Source: Pseudothermotoga hypogea DSM 11164 = NBRC 106472 | GTDB lineage: Bacteria; Thermotogota; Thermotogae; Thermotogales; DSM-5069 | Length of the DNA: 64,000 bases | NCBI RefSeq assembly: GCF_000816145.1 | Contig: NZ_CP007141.1 | Location: forward strand, 496,001 to 560,000 | Direction: 5' to 3' | Translations under genes and position numbers: made by a program | Shown here: positions 8,955 through 53,483 of the stretch, piece after piece | Numbering within the stretch: position 1 is the stretch's first letter | Layout: the number at the start of each line of letters is the position of its first letter | Notes under the pieces: model-generated | The model's input: the letters and a program-made list of their open reading frames with translations, nothing else | Database searches by the model: none | What the model was told of the DNA's origin: nothing

Positions 8955-10310
8955 TCACAGATGAATCGGTCTGTCGACGACACCTTCGATTGCGCCGAGC
9001 AAGGTTTCGCTGAGCGTCGGATGCGGATGGATGGTCCTCTCAAGCTGTTCCGCCGTTAAGCCGTTTCTGACCGCGATCGTGGCTTCCATTATGAGCTCCG
9101 TAGCGTAGGGTCCAACTATGGTCGCACCGAGTATTTTTCCCGTCTTCGCATCCGCTATGAACTTGGCAAAACCCTCTTTTTCGAGCATGGTCCTGGCACG
9201 ACCGTTGGCCATCAGTGGATACGAAAAGACTTTGACCGTCGAAGGATCGACGTCCTTCTCCTTGACTCCCACGCTCGCCACTTCCGGTTCGCTGAATATA
9301 ACACTGGGTACGGCTGAATAGTCCATCTTCGTTGGTTTTCCACAGATGTTTTCCGCTGCCACGACGGCTTCGTACATTGCCACATGAGCGAGCATGATCT
9401 GGCCCCTCACGTCGCCAACTGCGTATATGTTTGGAAGGTTCGTGAGCATCGTCTCATCCGTTTTGATACCTCTCTCTATGGCAAGTCCGATGGACTTCAG
9501 ATCGTCACTGATCTTTGGCTTTCTTCCCACGGCGACGATGACCTTCTCGGTGGTCTTCTCGAGCTGACCTTCCTTGGTCTCGATGATCGAGCTGTAGCCG
9601 TTCTCGATAGGTTGAACGGACGTCACTTTAGACGATTCGTAGATCTCAGCGCCTCTTTTTTTCAGAGTCTTCGCGACGAGTTGCGCTGCGTCAGCATCTT
9701 CGTTGGGAAGTATGTGGTCCAAAAGTTCCACGACGATGACCTTCACGTTCAAGCTCGAGAAGAATGTTGCGAGTTCCACTCCGATGACCCCTCCGCCGAC
9801 TATGAGAACACTTTCTGGAAGACGTTCCATCCTGAAAACATCGTCGCTGGTCCAGATCCCAGGAACTTCGTTGAACGGAGGAAAGAGCGTGGGCACCGAA
9901 CCTGTGGCGATCAGGAGGTGCTTGGCCTCGAGCTTTTTATCCTGCACCCTCACGGAATTGGGAGACTCCACGATTGCCTCTCCGTTGATCAGCTCGACTC
10001 CATTTTTCTTGAAGAGATACTCTATGCCCCTTCTCGAGGCCACCACGACCTTGTTCATGTGGCTCCTAATCTTCGAAAAGTCAAAGGACACGTTCTCTGC
10101 CAGAACTCCAAGTTCAGCACCCTTCTCGACTATGCTTCTCAGCAAGTGGGCTGAGGTCAGCAAAGCCTTGGTGGGAATACAGCCCCAGTTCGTACACGTG
10201 CCTCCGACGAACGATTTTTCAACGACCGCCACGCGTTTTCCATGCTGAGCGAGCTTTATTGCAGCAACATAACCACCAGGTCCTGCACCGATGATCAGCG
10301 CATCGTACAT
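8955..10310 (-). CDS. lpdA: dihydrolipoamide dehydrogenase-like flavoprotein
   Basis: A 451-residue pyridine nucleotide-disulfide oxidoreductase. It has the FAD motif IGAGPGGYVAAIKLAQHG at the N-terminus, the redox disulfide in GGTCTNWGCIPTKALL, an NAD-binding GGGVIGVELATFF, and the C-terminal active-site HPHPTLSE. This is E3 of 2-oxoacid dehydrogenases or the L-protein of glycine cleavage. No lipoyl or decarboxylase partner is in the window; instead it is first in an operon with an amine dehydrogenase-like complex. If that complex makes glycine from an N-methyl amino acid, L-protein would be a logical partner; this is inference. GGAGGTGATC precedes the ATG at 10310. Confidence 0.85.
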   Translation of the reverse strand: MYDALIIGAGPGGYVAAIKLAQHGKRVAVVEKSFVGGTCTNWGCIPTKALLTSAHLLRSIVEKGAELGVLAENVSFDFSKIRSHMNKVVVASRRGIEYLFKKNGVELINGEAIVESPNSVRVQDKKLEAKHLLIATGSVPTLFPPFNEVPGIWTSDDVFRMERLPESVLIVGGGVIGVELATFFSSLNVKVIVVELLDHILPNEDADAAQLVAKTLKKRGAEIYESSKVTSVQPIENGYSSIIETKEGQLEKTTEKVIVAVGRKPKISDDLKSIGLAIERGIKTDETMLTNLPNIYAVGDVRGQIMLAHVAMYEAVVAAENICGKPTKMDYSAVPSVIFSEPEVASVGVKEKDVDPSTVKVFSYPLMANGRARTMLEKEGFAKFIADAKTGKILGATIVGPYATELIMEATIAVRNGLTAEQLERTIHPHPTLSETLLGAIEGVVDRPIHL

Positions 10311-24813: not shown

Positions 24814-25778
24814 AGATCGTCTACGATCCAAAACACGTCCTCCACAGGCCGACGAAGGAGATAGACAGGGGCAAATTCATAGAGAACCCCGAAAAACCCG
24901 AACGCATCGAAGCGATAAAGGACGCGTTGATCATGAACGGTTTCGACAACATACACTCTCCGAACAGTTTTCCCATGAGTTACGTGTATCTGGTTCACGA
25001 CGAACGGTACGTCAAGTGGTTGAAAAACAAATGCGTATCCCTTGAGCCTGATGAGGAGTACATAACCGAGCTGTTCGGGTACGATCTGTGTTTCGACACC
25101 GGAACTCCGATCAGCAATTGGACCTTCGACGCAGCGAAGCGTGCAGTCGACGTAACACTGACAGCGGCGAGTTTGCTGAGCGGAAGGACGAATCTGGTCT
25201 ACGCACTTGTCAGGCCACCCGGACATCACGCAACTCGAGGTGCCTGTGGAGGGTACTGCTATTTCAACAACGCGGCGGTCGCGGCCATGTACTTTCTCTC
25301 CAGAGGAAACGCTGATGGTGTTGCGATACTGGATCTCGACTTTCATCATGGCAACGGTACTCAGGACATATTCTACGAGACGGACGAGGTCCTGTACGTT
25401 TCGATACACGGAGATCCGGATATCTTTTATCCATGGGTCAGTGGCAGGGAGAGTGAGACGGGTCAGGGACCCGGCGAGGGTTTCAACATCAATTTGCCAT
25501 TGCCCCCAAAGTCTGACTGGCGAAAGTATTCAGAAGCGCTGGAACAGGCTTTGAGGGAAATCAGAAATTACTATCCCGATGTGCTCATAGTGTCGCTGGG
25601 TTTCGACACGCACGCGGACGATCCAGTCGGTGGATTTTCCCTCAAAGACGACGATTACGGGCTCATGGGAAAAGCCATAAGCAAACTCAAGATTCCCACG
25701 CTGGTCGTGCAGGAGGGTGGATACAACCCGCGGGCGAATGCGTCGGCCGCTGTGAAGTTCTTCTCGGCACTCGTCTGA
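24810..25778 (+). CDS. HDAC-superfamily deacetylase (acetylpolyamine amidohydrolase-like)
   Basis: A 322-residue zinc hydrolase of the histone-deacetylase fold, acting on acetylated amines in bacteria. Active-site motifs are intact: RPPGHHATRG (paired His), GYCYFNNAAVAAMYF, LDLDFHHGNGTQDIFY (zinc Asp and His) and SLGFDTHADDP (zinc Asp). The size fits acetylpolyamine amidohydrolases and acetoin-utilisation-type enzymes; the true substrate is open. The TTG start overlaps the rpiB stop. Its stop codon abuts the stop of the convergent FGGY kinase with no base between them. Confidence 0.88.
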   Translation: MKIVYDPKHVLHRPTKEIDRGKFIENPEKPERIEAIKDALIMNGFDNIHSPNSFPMSYVYLVHDERYVKWLKNKCVSLEPDEEYITELFGYDLCFDTGTPISNWTFDAAKRAVDVTLTAASLLSGRTNLVYALVRPPGHHATRGACGGYCYFNNAAVAAMYFLSRGNADGVAILDLDFHHGNGTQDIFYETDEVLYVSIHGDPDIFYPWVSGRESETGQGPGEGFNINLPLPPKSDWRKYSEALEQALREIRNYYPDVLIVSLGFDTHADDPVGGFSLKDDDYGLMGKAISKLKIPTLVVQEGGYNPRANASAAVKFFSALV

Positions 25779-51526: not shown

Positions 51527-51713
51527 TTCCTGCCGGGGCTGTCCCCTCAGCGGAGGGAAAGCGGAGCCGGTCAAAAAAGACTGGGTGAGGGGGGATGGCC
51601 ATGAAGAAACTGTGGAGAATTCTGCTCATCGCAGGAAGCTTCTTGGCGATGTTGATCTCTGCGGTTGGTAACATCGAGGTCTGGTGACGATTTGAGAGGC
51701 TCCCCGGCAGGAA
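51527..51713 (+). promoter_or_regulatory. structured mRNA element enclosing a tiny ORF
   Basis: The ends form a perfect 12-bp inverted repeat, TTCCTGCCGGGG (51527-51538) with CCCCGGCAGGAA (51702-51713). Between them: hairpin CCCTC-AGCG-GAGGG (51544-51557), hairpin CCGGTC-AAAAAA-GACTGG (51567-51584), and an alternative 7-bp helix CCCCTCA (51543-51549) with TGAGGGG (51586-51592) that would cover the ribosome-binding site of the ORF at 51601. The first hairpin and the last helix exclude each other. It lies inside an operon, with no terminator T run. I do not recognise it as a known riboswitch. Confidence 0.6.
51601..51687 (+). CDS. 28-residue hydrophobic peptide
   Basis: Unrecognised. ATG at 51601 has GAGGGGGG ending 6 bases upstream; an ATG at 51595 is in frame but abuts that site. 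The product starts MKKLWRILLIAGSFLAMLIS and ends GNIEVW: a short basic N-terminus, one membrane-spanning stretch and a polar C-terminus. It could be a small membrane protein or an exported signal peptide-like molecule. It is enclosed by the inverted repeat at 51527/51702 and stands 43 bases before the HD-GYP start. Confidence 0.6.
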   Translation: MKKLWRILLIAGSFLAMLISAVGNIEVW

Positions 51714-51730
51714 CAAGCGGAGTTGATGGT

Positions 51731-52990
51731 GTGAAGAAGGCTTTTCTGTATTATTCGACGTCGCTGTTCGCGCTCTATGTTCTCTCGATTACGGTCCTTT
51801 ATCTGAACCGTCCCGCGCAGTTCGGTTGGAGCTTCCTGTTGTTCCTCGCCTTTGGGCTCGCCTCAGAAGCGATCGGTTTTTGGATAAACACTAACGTGAA
51901 ATCCCAGGTGAGGATCACTGGCGGTATGTTGATCAACGTTTTAGCAGCGGTCGTTCTTGAAAACGCTTCAGCCATGCTGATAGCCACAGCCTCAGTGATC
52001 TTCGCAGGATTGTTTCTTGTGAAGAGCAAACGGCTGACGAGTTATCTTTTCAACGTCTCTCAGATAGGTCTGAGCACGTTCGTTGCACTGGTGACCTACG
52101 AAACGTTGAAGACTGAAAGCTTGATAACGAACATGTGGCTCGTGTTGCTGGCCGGATCAGTCTACATGCTTCTGAACGCAATTCAATCAACCTTTGCTGT
52201 GTATTTTACTGGGAACGTCGGTATCTTGACCAGTTTGAAACTCGCAACGAAAAGTCCGCTCTTGAGCGCCTCACTCATGCTTCCTCTCGTCGCCGTCTCT
52301 TACCTGTTGTACGAATTGGTCGGTATCTCAGCGATCCCATTAGTGTTTGCCATACTCACCGCGATACAAGTTGGAAACATGTTCAGAAACGAGTATGAGC
52401 AGTCCAAGCTGGACAAGCTCAAGCTCATGGCAAAAAGCCTCGAGATGAGAGATTCTTACACGAGTGGTCACAGCGAGCGGGCCGCGGAACTGGCTTACAG
52501 AATAGCCAAAGCTCTGGGTTTGAGCGAGAAGCTCTGTGAGAGGATAAAGATGGCGTGCACACTTCACGATGTGGGCAAGATAGGTATTCCCGATTACATC
52601 CTCGGAAAACCTGAAAAATTGTCAGATTCCGAGTTTGAGGTCATCAAGACTCACCCAACGAAATCGGAACAGTTGCTCAAGAGCGTCAAAGGCTTGCGCG
52701 AAGAGGCTAAGTGGGTTCGGCATCATCACGAACGGTGGGATGGACTGGGTTATCCGGACGGTCTTTCGGGTGAACAGATTCCTCTACCTTCAAGGATCAT
52801 AGCAATAGCGGACATCTATGAGGCCCTGACCAGCGATAGGCCCTACCGAAAGGCTTACAGCAAAGAAGAGGCCATCGAAATGATCGAGCAGATGAGCGGA
52901 ACGGTCCTTGATCCGAGAGTTGTTGATGCTTTCCTCAAGGTCATTGGTATGAATCACTCCGGAAACGGAAAAGCGAAAGAACGAGATTGA
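51731..52990 (+). CDS. membrane-anchored HD-GYP domain protein
   Basis: A 419-residue protein. The first 210 residues hold about six membrane helices; the last 190 form an HD-GYP domain with the metal and signature residues GHSERAAELAYRIAKALG, CTLHDVGKIGIPD, IKTHPTKSEQLL, RHHHERWDGLGYPDGL and IAIADIYEALTSDRPYR. Such domains hydrolyse cyclic di-GMP or related dinucleotides. I start it at GTG 51731, 8 bases after GGAG. The membrane part may sense a ligand, possibly the small peptide encoded just upstream. The 3' end overlaps the convergent gene by 50 bases. Confidence 0.87.
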   Translation: MKKAFLYYSTSLFALYVLSITVLYLNRPAQFGWSFLLFLAFGLASEAIGFWINTNVKSQVRITGGMLINVLAAVVLENASAMLIATASVIFAGLFLVKSKRLTSYLFNVSQIGLSTFVALVTYETLKTESLITNMWLVLLAGSVYMLLNAIQSTFAVYFTGNVGILTSLKLATKSPLLSASLMLPLVAVSYLLYELVGISAIPLVFAILTAIQVGNMFRNEYEQSKLDKLKLMAKSLEMRDSYTSGHSERAAELAYRIAKALGLSEKLCERIKMACTLHDVGKIGIPDYILGKPEKLSDSEFEVIKTHPTKSEQLLKSVKGLREEAKWVRHHHERWDGLGYPDGLSGEQIPLPSRIIAIADIYEALTSDRPYRKAYSKEEAIEMIEQMSGTVLDPRVVDAFLKVIGMNHSGNGKAKERD

Positions 52991-53483
52991 CCTCGCCTAC
53001 CCCCATGTTCAGTTCCTTCGCGATTTGATGCTCGTCCTTACCTTCCTGATACATGAGCAAGATTTTTCGCTCGATGGAAAGGTCTGAATCTTCCTGGCTG
53101 TTCTCGACCCGTCTGACTTCTTTCACAGGTTCGGGTTCCTTGTGTGGCTGCTTCGTTTCAACTGGGTTTTCGACTCGCTCTTGATCAACATTGCCGAAAG
53201 AGTTCATCAGCTCTGTTTCACGAACGCACAGTTGACTGTACAGCGAATTGGCCTGTTTGATGAGTTTTCTCAGTTCTTCTACTTTCCGATCGAGCATCTG
53301 TAACCTCACAGCGGACATGTGACGGAACTGGCCCATCAACTCGAGGATCCGCTCTTCAAACTTTTCGTACTCTTCGTCCAACTTCGTTCGTTTGTGCAAC
53401 ACTTGGTTGAGGAAAACTCCCCACGCGAATGTGACCGTGCCGACCGTACATAGAACAACCAACCAATACACGATGTCTGACAA
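52941..53483 (-). CDS. membrane-anchored coiled-coil protein with C-terminal helix-turn-helix-like segment
   Basis: A 180-residue protein of unknown function. One N-terminal membrane helix (about 3-25), a long charged coiled coil (about 32-95), a Pro/Glu/Lys linker, and a C-terminal segment ERKILLMYQEGKDEHQIAKE that looks like a helix-turn-helix of the DUF6115/YvrJ-like kind. TTG start with GGAGG 7 bases upstream. Its 3' end is antisense to the last 50 bases of the HD-GYP gene. It is monocistronic and divergent from the aldo/keto reductase gene. Confidence 0.75.
   Translation of the reverse strand: MSDIVYWLVVLCTVGTVTFAWGVFLNQVLHKRTKLDEEYEKFEERILELMGQFRHMSAVRLQMLDRKVEELRKLIKQANSLYSQLCVRETELMNSFGNVDQERVENPVETKQPHKEPEPVKEVRRVENSQEDSDLSIERKILLMYQEGKDEHQIAKELNMGVGEVNLVLSLFRFRSDSYQ

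Follow-up and report, generated by a model that had tools for sequence, protein, structure and literature searches.

MgrB is a short single-helix peptide with a basic N-terminus that regulates the membrane sensor PhoQ and is not encoded beside it. The ComS/XIP and SHP pheromones have cytosolic Rgg-type regulators as their receptors. In known type I toxin mRNAs, a long-range 5'-3' stem and a masked Shine-Dalgarno sequence (SD) accompany a hydrophobic basic peptide. To our knowledge, no ligand is known for the majority of the membrane sensor domains found in c-di-GMP enzymes, and c-di-GMP signalling has been little studied in Thermotoga-type hyperthermophiles. In cobalt uptake, the small membrane protein CbiN acts transiently on CbiM, with a loop over the metal pocket (PMC7689651).

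The locus described here also places a very small gene beside that of a membrane protein. It lies in a 64-kb stretch of DNA, analysed as a whole (the window), from a genome of 2,165,416 bases. Judged by its conservation, the locus is a three-part module comprising a structured RNA leader, a microprotein and a predicted MASE9-HD-GYP phosphodiesterase.

Organization of the locus

The 207-base stretch between engB and the MASE9-HD-GYP gene contains a 28-codon open reading frame (ORF). DNA of the region matched that of six relatives at the same place (91-70%). The features are as follows, with coordinates of the window.

51523: end of engB, the upstream neighbour of the 207-base stretch
51527..51538, + strand: P1 5' arm TTCCTGCCGGGG of a long-range stem enclosing the peptide gene (exact reverse-complement match)
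51539..51603, + strand: leader covariance model match (R1 13.1 bits, R2 23.1 bits)
51543..51549, + strand: anti-SD strand CCCCTCA of helix P2, pairing with 51586-51592
51549..51555, + strand: AGCGRAG motif, copy 1 (motif recurrence in leaders)
51560..51566, + strand: AGCGRAG motif, copy 2 (motif recurrence in leaders)
51567..51584, + strand: local hairpin CCGGTC-AAAAAA-GACTGG (sequence, minimum-energy fold)
51586..51594, + strand: ribosome-binding site GGGGGG of the peptide and P2' strand TGAGGGG (51586-51592)
51601..51687, + strand: peptide gene, 28 aa, MKKLWRILLIAGSFLAMLISAVGNIEVW (dN/dS, profile matches, always upstream of MASE9-HD-GYP)
51702..51713, + strand: P1' 3' arm CCCCGGCAGGAA (compensatory changes, exact match to the P1 5' arm)
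51716..51722, + strand: AGCGGAG, copy 3, overlapping the HD-GYP ribosome-binding site (same place in L008-L017)
51731..52990, + strand: predicted MASE9-HD-GYP phosphodiesterase gene, 419 aa, GTG start (PF20972, HD_5)

A convergent DUF6115 gene (window 52941-53483, - strand) follows the HD-GYP gene, and flanking DNA suggests that its place is kept in Thermotogaceae relatives.

The downstream gene encodes a MASE9-HD-GYP protein

The earlier note on this DNA had described the next gene as a membrane HD-GYP protein, and the domain searches agree. The protein contains a MASE9 domain (PF20972, E 7.4e-77, 258 bits against a cut-off of 24.3) and an HD-GYP domain (HD_5, E 1.6e-43), the latter also matching 9rbz (Z 24.7) and 4mcw (Z 24.2) in fold. 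The catalytic signature (HD, HH, GYP) was intact and invariant in 40 aligned relatives, and over part of its length the enzyme was 95% identical to a protein of a Pseudothermotoga MAG. It is predicted to be a membrane phosphodiesterase that degrades c-di-GMP.

The AlphaFold model of the MASE9 domain had a pLDDT of 91.6. When it was compared with known structures, the top 24 matches were all ECF S-components (Z 16.0-8.4), and the next entry had a Z of 7.4. The best matches were of the nickel/cobalt type (4m5b, Z 16.0; 5x3x_M, CbiM, Z 14.1). As modelled, MASE9 (window 51731-52390) has the fold of an ECF S-component, a resemblance of fold only. Because of this fold, the ligand of MASE9 may be a vitamin or a metal. 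No transporter genes were seen beside MASE9 in the loci read; MASE9 is fused to HD-GYP instead.

The 28-codon ORF is conserved as a protein-coding gene

Among relatives of the same genus, the peptide was 86-97% identical while synonymous sites were near saturation, with a dN/dS of 0.01-0.05 (0.08-0.33 within Thermotoga). By these measures of conservation, the ORF at 51601-51687 is a real gene, and its low dN/dS agrees with a protein that is kept in relatives. A strong ribosome-binding site had been ascribed to the ORF from the window alone; its G6 SD is strong in relatives too, and a strong purine-rich SD precedes nearly every peptide copy read, whichever gene lies upstream. We rejected a start at the in-frame ATG at 51595, which abuts the G-run, lacks SD spacing and is not conserved.

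Across loci the microprotein was 19-36 aa long; its N-terminus is basic, a hydrophobic segment follows, and small residues and an aromatic one are conserved in its tail, A-V/G-G-x-x-x-W. The conserved residues fall in the last nine codons, beside the stop, and conservation extends to the hydrophobic and basic character of the N-terminal part. Tail types were NIEVW, ANFRW and SSKWW, and peptides of family f3 extend beyond the W (WPxKGGK). Each peptide of 19-36 aa had at most one hydrophobic stretch, in place of the two helices and extracytoplasmic loop of CbiN. The shortest members (L179-L182; 19-20 aa, with several basic residues) seem too short to span a membrane, and a plain transmembrane subunit therefore misfits some members.

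Ten representatives gave no match above the curated cut-offs of Pfam and NCBIfam. We looked for natural fusions of the peptide and HD-GYP and saw none. Further, in the open-access literature we found no paper on this peptide/MASE9-HD-GYP system. These searches point to an apparently undescribed unit of peptide and RNA, with no Pfam, NCBIfam or Rfam counterpart.

The peptide is co-inherited with MASE9-HD-GYP in Thermotogota

Among 103 Thermotogota genomes, MASE9 was present in 42, the peptide in 42 and both in 41; the two mismatches (G010 and G049) lie at contig ends. The peptide was counted with profile A2, two further matches of which (E ~0.04) were taken as chance. A single MASE9 protein used as the query of genome contigs gave 5 loci. 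Wherever the contig continued, the downstream gene was always MASE9-HD-GYP. The gene upstream of the peptide varied, being engB in some families and others elsewhere. Two to three tandem copies of the peptide were present in five genomes (G013, G030, G033, G035 and G039).

In three groups (f3, which we infer to be Thermosipho-like, and two further genera, g7 and g13), the AGCGRAG motifs of the leader were gone, and the peptide was kept and often duplicated (L018, L025, L030, L035 and L037). No enclosing stem stood out in these groups, one candidate in L037 excepted. Because the peptide persists and duplicates where the RNA motifs are lost, its role would not rest on the RNA alone, and the loss of the RNA with the peptide kept therefore argues against a peptide translated purely in cis. 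The f3 pair seemingly has its own sigma-70-like promoter upstream of the peptide (L020, L026, L030, L031, L033 and L035), and a palindrome, TGGAANNTTCCA, lies directly before the f3 -35 region as a possible operator.

Sister peptides precede MASE9-HD-GYP genes in Bacillota and Armatimonadota

MASE9 was common in 299 Bacillota genomes, and MASE9 genes of the HD-GYP type were preceded there by a peptide of 23-28 aa of the form (basic)-(hydrophobic)-LAGGAxxxW. The sister form ..LVLAGGANFRW was found before MASE9-HD-GYP genes of Bacillota and some Armatimonadota, and the Thermotogota and Bacillota peptide profiles align with an hhalign probability of 90%.

Profile A3 gave 71 matches in Bacillota, 61 of them adjoining MASE9. 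Three non-adjacent matches (L171-L173) adjoin HD-GYP genes in which MASE9 has diverged too far to score; of the others, several are truncated where a contig stops, and two weak ones fall within long frames. An A3 match was present at 59 of the 82 Bacillota MASE9 genes of HD-GYP size. Among the approximately 23 without one, the peptide was nonetheless present at L122, L130, L180 and L181, and apparently no peptide precedes the genes at L127, L135 and L138. MASE9 genes of GGDEF size had a match in 1 of 31 cases, and that one is actually an HD-GYP gene; the peptide was thus found at about 0 of 30 MASE9-GGDEF genes. The same LAGGA peptide was present in Armatimonadota (L167 and L170). MASE9 also occurs in Thermus composti, of the Deinococcota.

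The earlier note had suggested that the peptide is tied to the membrane HD-GYP protein. Gene conservation argues strongly for such a tie, in at least three phyla: the association is near one-to-one in Thermotogota, the gene order is the same in Bacillota and Armatimonadota, and the peptide is absent at MASE9-GGDEF genes.

Several neighbouring features were observed in these phyla. Other Armatimonadota loci (L156-L165) carry a variant peptide, MKYWLTMLLLLVVWATTYGAKLEIYPPPKPPPPPSATY, with a proline-rich tail. A gene of ~220-250 aa with the C-terminus GSAxxxxDxxxAxxxAxLDAxNRR precedes the peptide at most Bacillota and several Armatimonadota loci (L088-L173); two examples of its product had no Pfam match. 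At L171-L173, HD-GYP is followed by DUF5317 and a SecA-like gene.

The leader is a conserved structured RNA

Most Thermotogota leaders contain three near-fixed copies of AGCGRAG, at about -82, -58 and -40, against a chance expectation of 0.04 per leader. The motif was also present in 32 of the 41 Bacillota and Armatimonadota leaders read. We rejected the idea that AGCGRAG is a regulatory motif of wide use; pairs of it were not enriched in the window's own genome (8 vs 7 for a reversed-pattern control).

Bacillota leaders form a P3 hairpin with a UAGCGG loop, the place of which is occupied by the hairpin at 51567-51584 in the window. P3 covaries: on a hand-anchored subset of Bacillota leaders we counted 18 double-change cells vs 6.1 after shuffling (0/500). 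RNAalifold found no structure in the plain alignment of Bacillota leaders, in which the hairpin is misaligned. The anti-SD strand of Bacillota leaders lies just before AGCGRAG and pairs with the SD, the equivalent in the window being 51543-51549/51586-51592; this pairing was visible in L068 and L079.

Two mutually exclusive helices had been proposed to expose or cover the ribosome-binding site. The covering helix, 51543-51549/51586-51592, is the part that recurs. The short hairpin 51544-51548/51553-51557 exists in the window and was broken or reduced to ~3 bp in L009-L012 (it fails in L009, L010 and L012). With the short hairpin missing from sister species, the exclusive switch is not conserved as drawn, and we rejected it in that form.

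We then searched with a covariance model, R1, built from 13 Bacillota leaders; the window was not in its training set. Across 55 loci, R1 gave 29 matches with E<=1, every one of them where it was expected; both Kosmotogales loci and the window (51539-51603, E 0.61) were among them. The match in the window ends exactly at the peptide start codon. In the 299 Bacillota genomes, all 31 matches at E<1e-3 were at this locus or at contig-end remnants of it and ended at the start of such a peptide gene; 18 of the 31 had been held out of training. Further, R1 exposed four peptides of 19-20 aa that were unseen by the protein profile (L179-L181, followed by HD-GYP, and L182, at a contig end).

A refined model, R2, whose training included the window's own sequence, gave 27 matches, many of them weak, of which 26 ended on a peptide start codon. 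The leaders concerned included those of Thermotoga and Petrotogales, and most had been held out of training. The genome-wide search of Thermotogota with R2 was too weak to be used by itself and found the locus only in G002, G003 and G021; two better-scoring genome-wide matches of the RNA models in Thermotogota are due to chance. Three other R2 sites (L188-L190), two of them inside coding frames, look like chance matches and were rejected. Rfam gave no match for the window and eight loci at gathering and permissive thresholds. On the strength of these alignments, the leader is a conserved structured RNA, which in the 299 Bacillota genomes is specific to the peptide/HD-GYP locus.

A long-range stem encloses the peptide gene

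The perfect 12-bp repeat that the earlier note had seen is present, its arms (51527-51538/51702-51713, 163 nt apart) being exact complements. Two further perfect 12-bp inverted repeats with comparable spacing occur in the 64-kb window, at 9554-9763 (spacer 186 bases) and 25549-25647 (spacer 75 bases). The repeat by itself is not rare, and a chance inverted repeat was rejected through its conservation. In Thermotogaceae, 6 of 14 P1 pairs showed compensatory changes, with 13 double-change cells vs 6.9 after shuffling (4/500). In Thermotoga together with L023, 6 of 14 pairs did so, with 8 double-change cells vs 3.2 (0/500); the arms were chosen by pairing, and paired-cell counts lean to structure, double changes being the fairer measure. 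Absence of the ORF, or of compensating changes in the repeat arms, from close relatives had been named as what would speak against the locus; both the ORF and the changes were found.

An enclosing stem was also found in Kosmotogales and Bacillota, with unrelated arm sequences; in the Armatimonadota locus L156 it reaches 24 bp. The stem's 3' arm sits 4-33 nt past the peptide stop, and a terminator-like U-run follows the stem in 23 of the 36 Bacillota and Armatimonadota loci checked. The fold of the whole region was better than 199 of 200 shuffles (z -2.5). The locus stands above chance because of the DNA matches, the low dN/dS, the compensatory changes and the co-inheritance across phyla.

Discussion

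Our preferred explanation, to which we give a probability of roughly 0.56, is that the peptide works in trans, as a membrane partner or ligand dedicated to MASE9-HD-GYP, and that its production is gated by RNA. The microprotein would associate with MASE9 at the membrane and set the activity of the phosphodiesterase, a job that may be likened to that of CbiN serving CbiM, on a MASE9 domain of S-component fold. The leader would mask the ribosome-binding site of the peptide and close a stem around the whole ORF. Masking and stem together could allow far more peptide than enzyme to be made and could gate peptide production. Co-inheritance implies shared function, not contact; we infer physical contact, the effect on activity and the role of the RNA. 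The interpretation in the earlier note is supported in part, in that gene conservation strongly ties the peptide to HD-GYP and the two-helix switch as drawn did not hold. The wider claim seems to us evenly balanced, namely that Thermotogota, Bacillota and Armatimonadota share a class of microproteins that directly control a phosphodiesterase via an S-component-like sensor and have a dedicated leader.

The strong conservation of the tail might also reflect a pheromone, in which an N-terminal export signal would lead to release of the short C-terminal tail and MASE9 would sense it outside the cell, in an autocrine manner or from cell to cell. The signal-peptide-like shape with small residues before a short tail, the tandem copies, as found at some pheromone loci, and the fold of MASE9, that of a small-ligand-binding protein, are all consistent with this. 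We nevertheless consider it unlikely: the tail hardly varies between phyla, whereas pheromones are typically species-specific; in the loci read, no dedicated gene for a protease or exporter adjoins the pair; and no export signal is evident in the shortest peptides. The same conserved residues, lying within the last nine codons beside the stop, could instead belong to a leader peptide acting in cis, with no role in trans. Its translation, or a ribosome arrested where the ORF ends, would then control folding of the stem and thereby HD-GYP expression. The position of the stem's 3' arm 4-33 nt after the stop, the U-run after the stem (23/36 Bacillota and Armatimonadota loci) and the confinement of the RNA to this locus would suit such a peptide. 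However, the Thermosipho-like and related lineages without the motifs or stem keep and duplicate the peptide, f3 peptides continue past the W (WPxKGGK), and the N-terminal part has conserved hydrophobic and basic features too, which makes control in cis quite improbable as the whole explanation.

The RNA could also be the point of the locus, as a new class of riboswitch for a cyclic dinucleotide or cofactor to which the peptide is secondary. The leader is structured across phyla, has a near-invariant AGCGRAG and a masked SD, and matches no Rfam family. It was found only before this gene pair in 299 Bacillota genomes, however, whereas most riboswitch classes serve several genes, and lineages without the RNA still keep the peptide; we therefore doubt strongly that the RNA alone accounts for the locus. 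A sensing RNA is compatible with a peptide that is the partner of MASE9. Least probable, to the point of being hardly credible, is a type I toxin-like system, in which 5'-3' pairing and a masked SD would lock the mRNA of a hydrophobic peptide and an antisense RNA would be the antidote. The long-range 5'-3' stem, the masked SD and the hydrophobic basic peptide resemble known toxin mRNAs, but type I systems are mobile and patchy in distribution, unlike a peptide whose deep co-inheritance with a single enzyme is close to one-to-one across phyla.

For MASE9, a concrete and testable input is offered by a microprotein that is passed on with a single sensor-enzyme pair in several phyla, and the S-component fold hints at a way for a small partner to gate this domain. 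The leader is a new conserved RNA element and would add a second layer of control. The ORFs are so short that annotation easily misses this gene family, and the locus names genes to test for c-di-GMP signalling in Thermotoga-type hyperthermophiles.

Comparison with known systems

As in CbiN-CbiM and NikN-NikM, a small membrane protein is encoded beside a protein of S-component fold and is proposed to serve that protein. CbiN, in contrast, has two helices and functions in transport, whereas the peptide described here has 19-36 aa, at most one helix and an HD-GYP partner. The parallel is an analogy of arrangement and fold, and we claim no kinship for the peptide. MgrB is likewise a short single-helix peptide with a basic N-terminus, although regulation of a membrane sensor is only proposed for the present peptide. 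The two differ in sequence and in class of partner, and the gene described here adjoins that of its partner. ComS/XIP and SHP resemble the peptide as short hydrophobic precursors with an aromatic or glycine-rich C-terminal tail, encoded beside the receptor gene (here a proposed one); unlike theirs, the partner here is a membrane enzyme and the tails are conserved across phyla. Finally, the c-di-GMP riboswitches (GEMM and c-di-GMP-II) also form a structured leader before a gene of c-di-GMP turnover, whereas the present leader matches neither these nor any other Rfam family.
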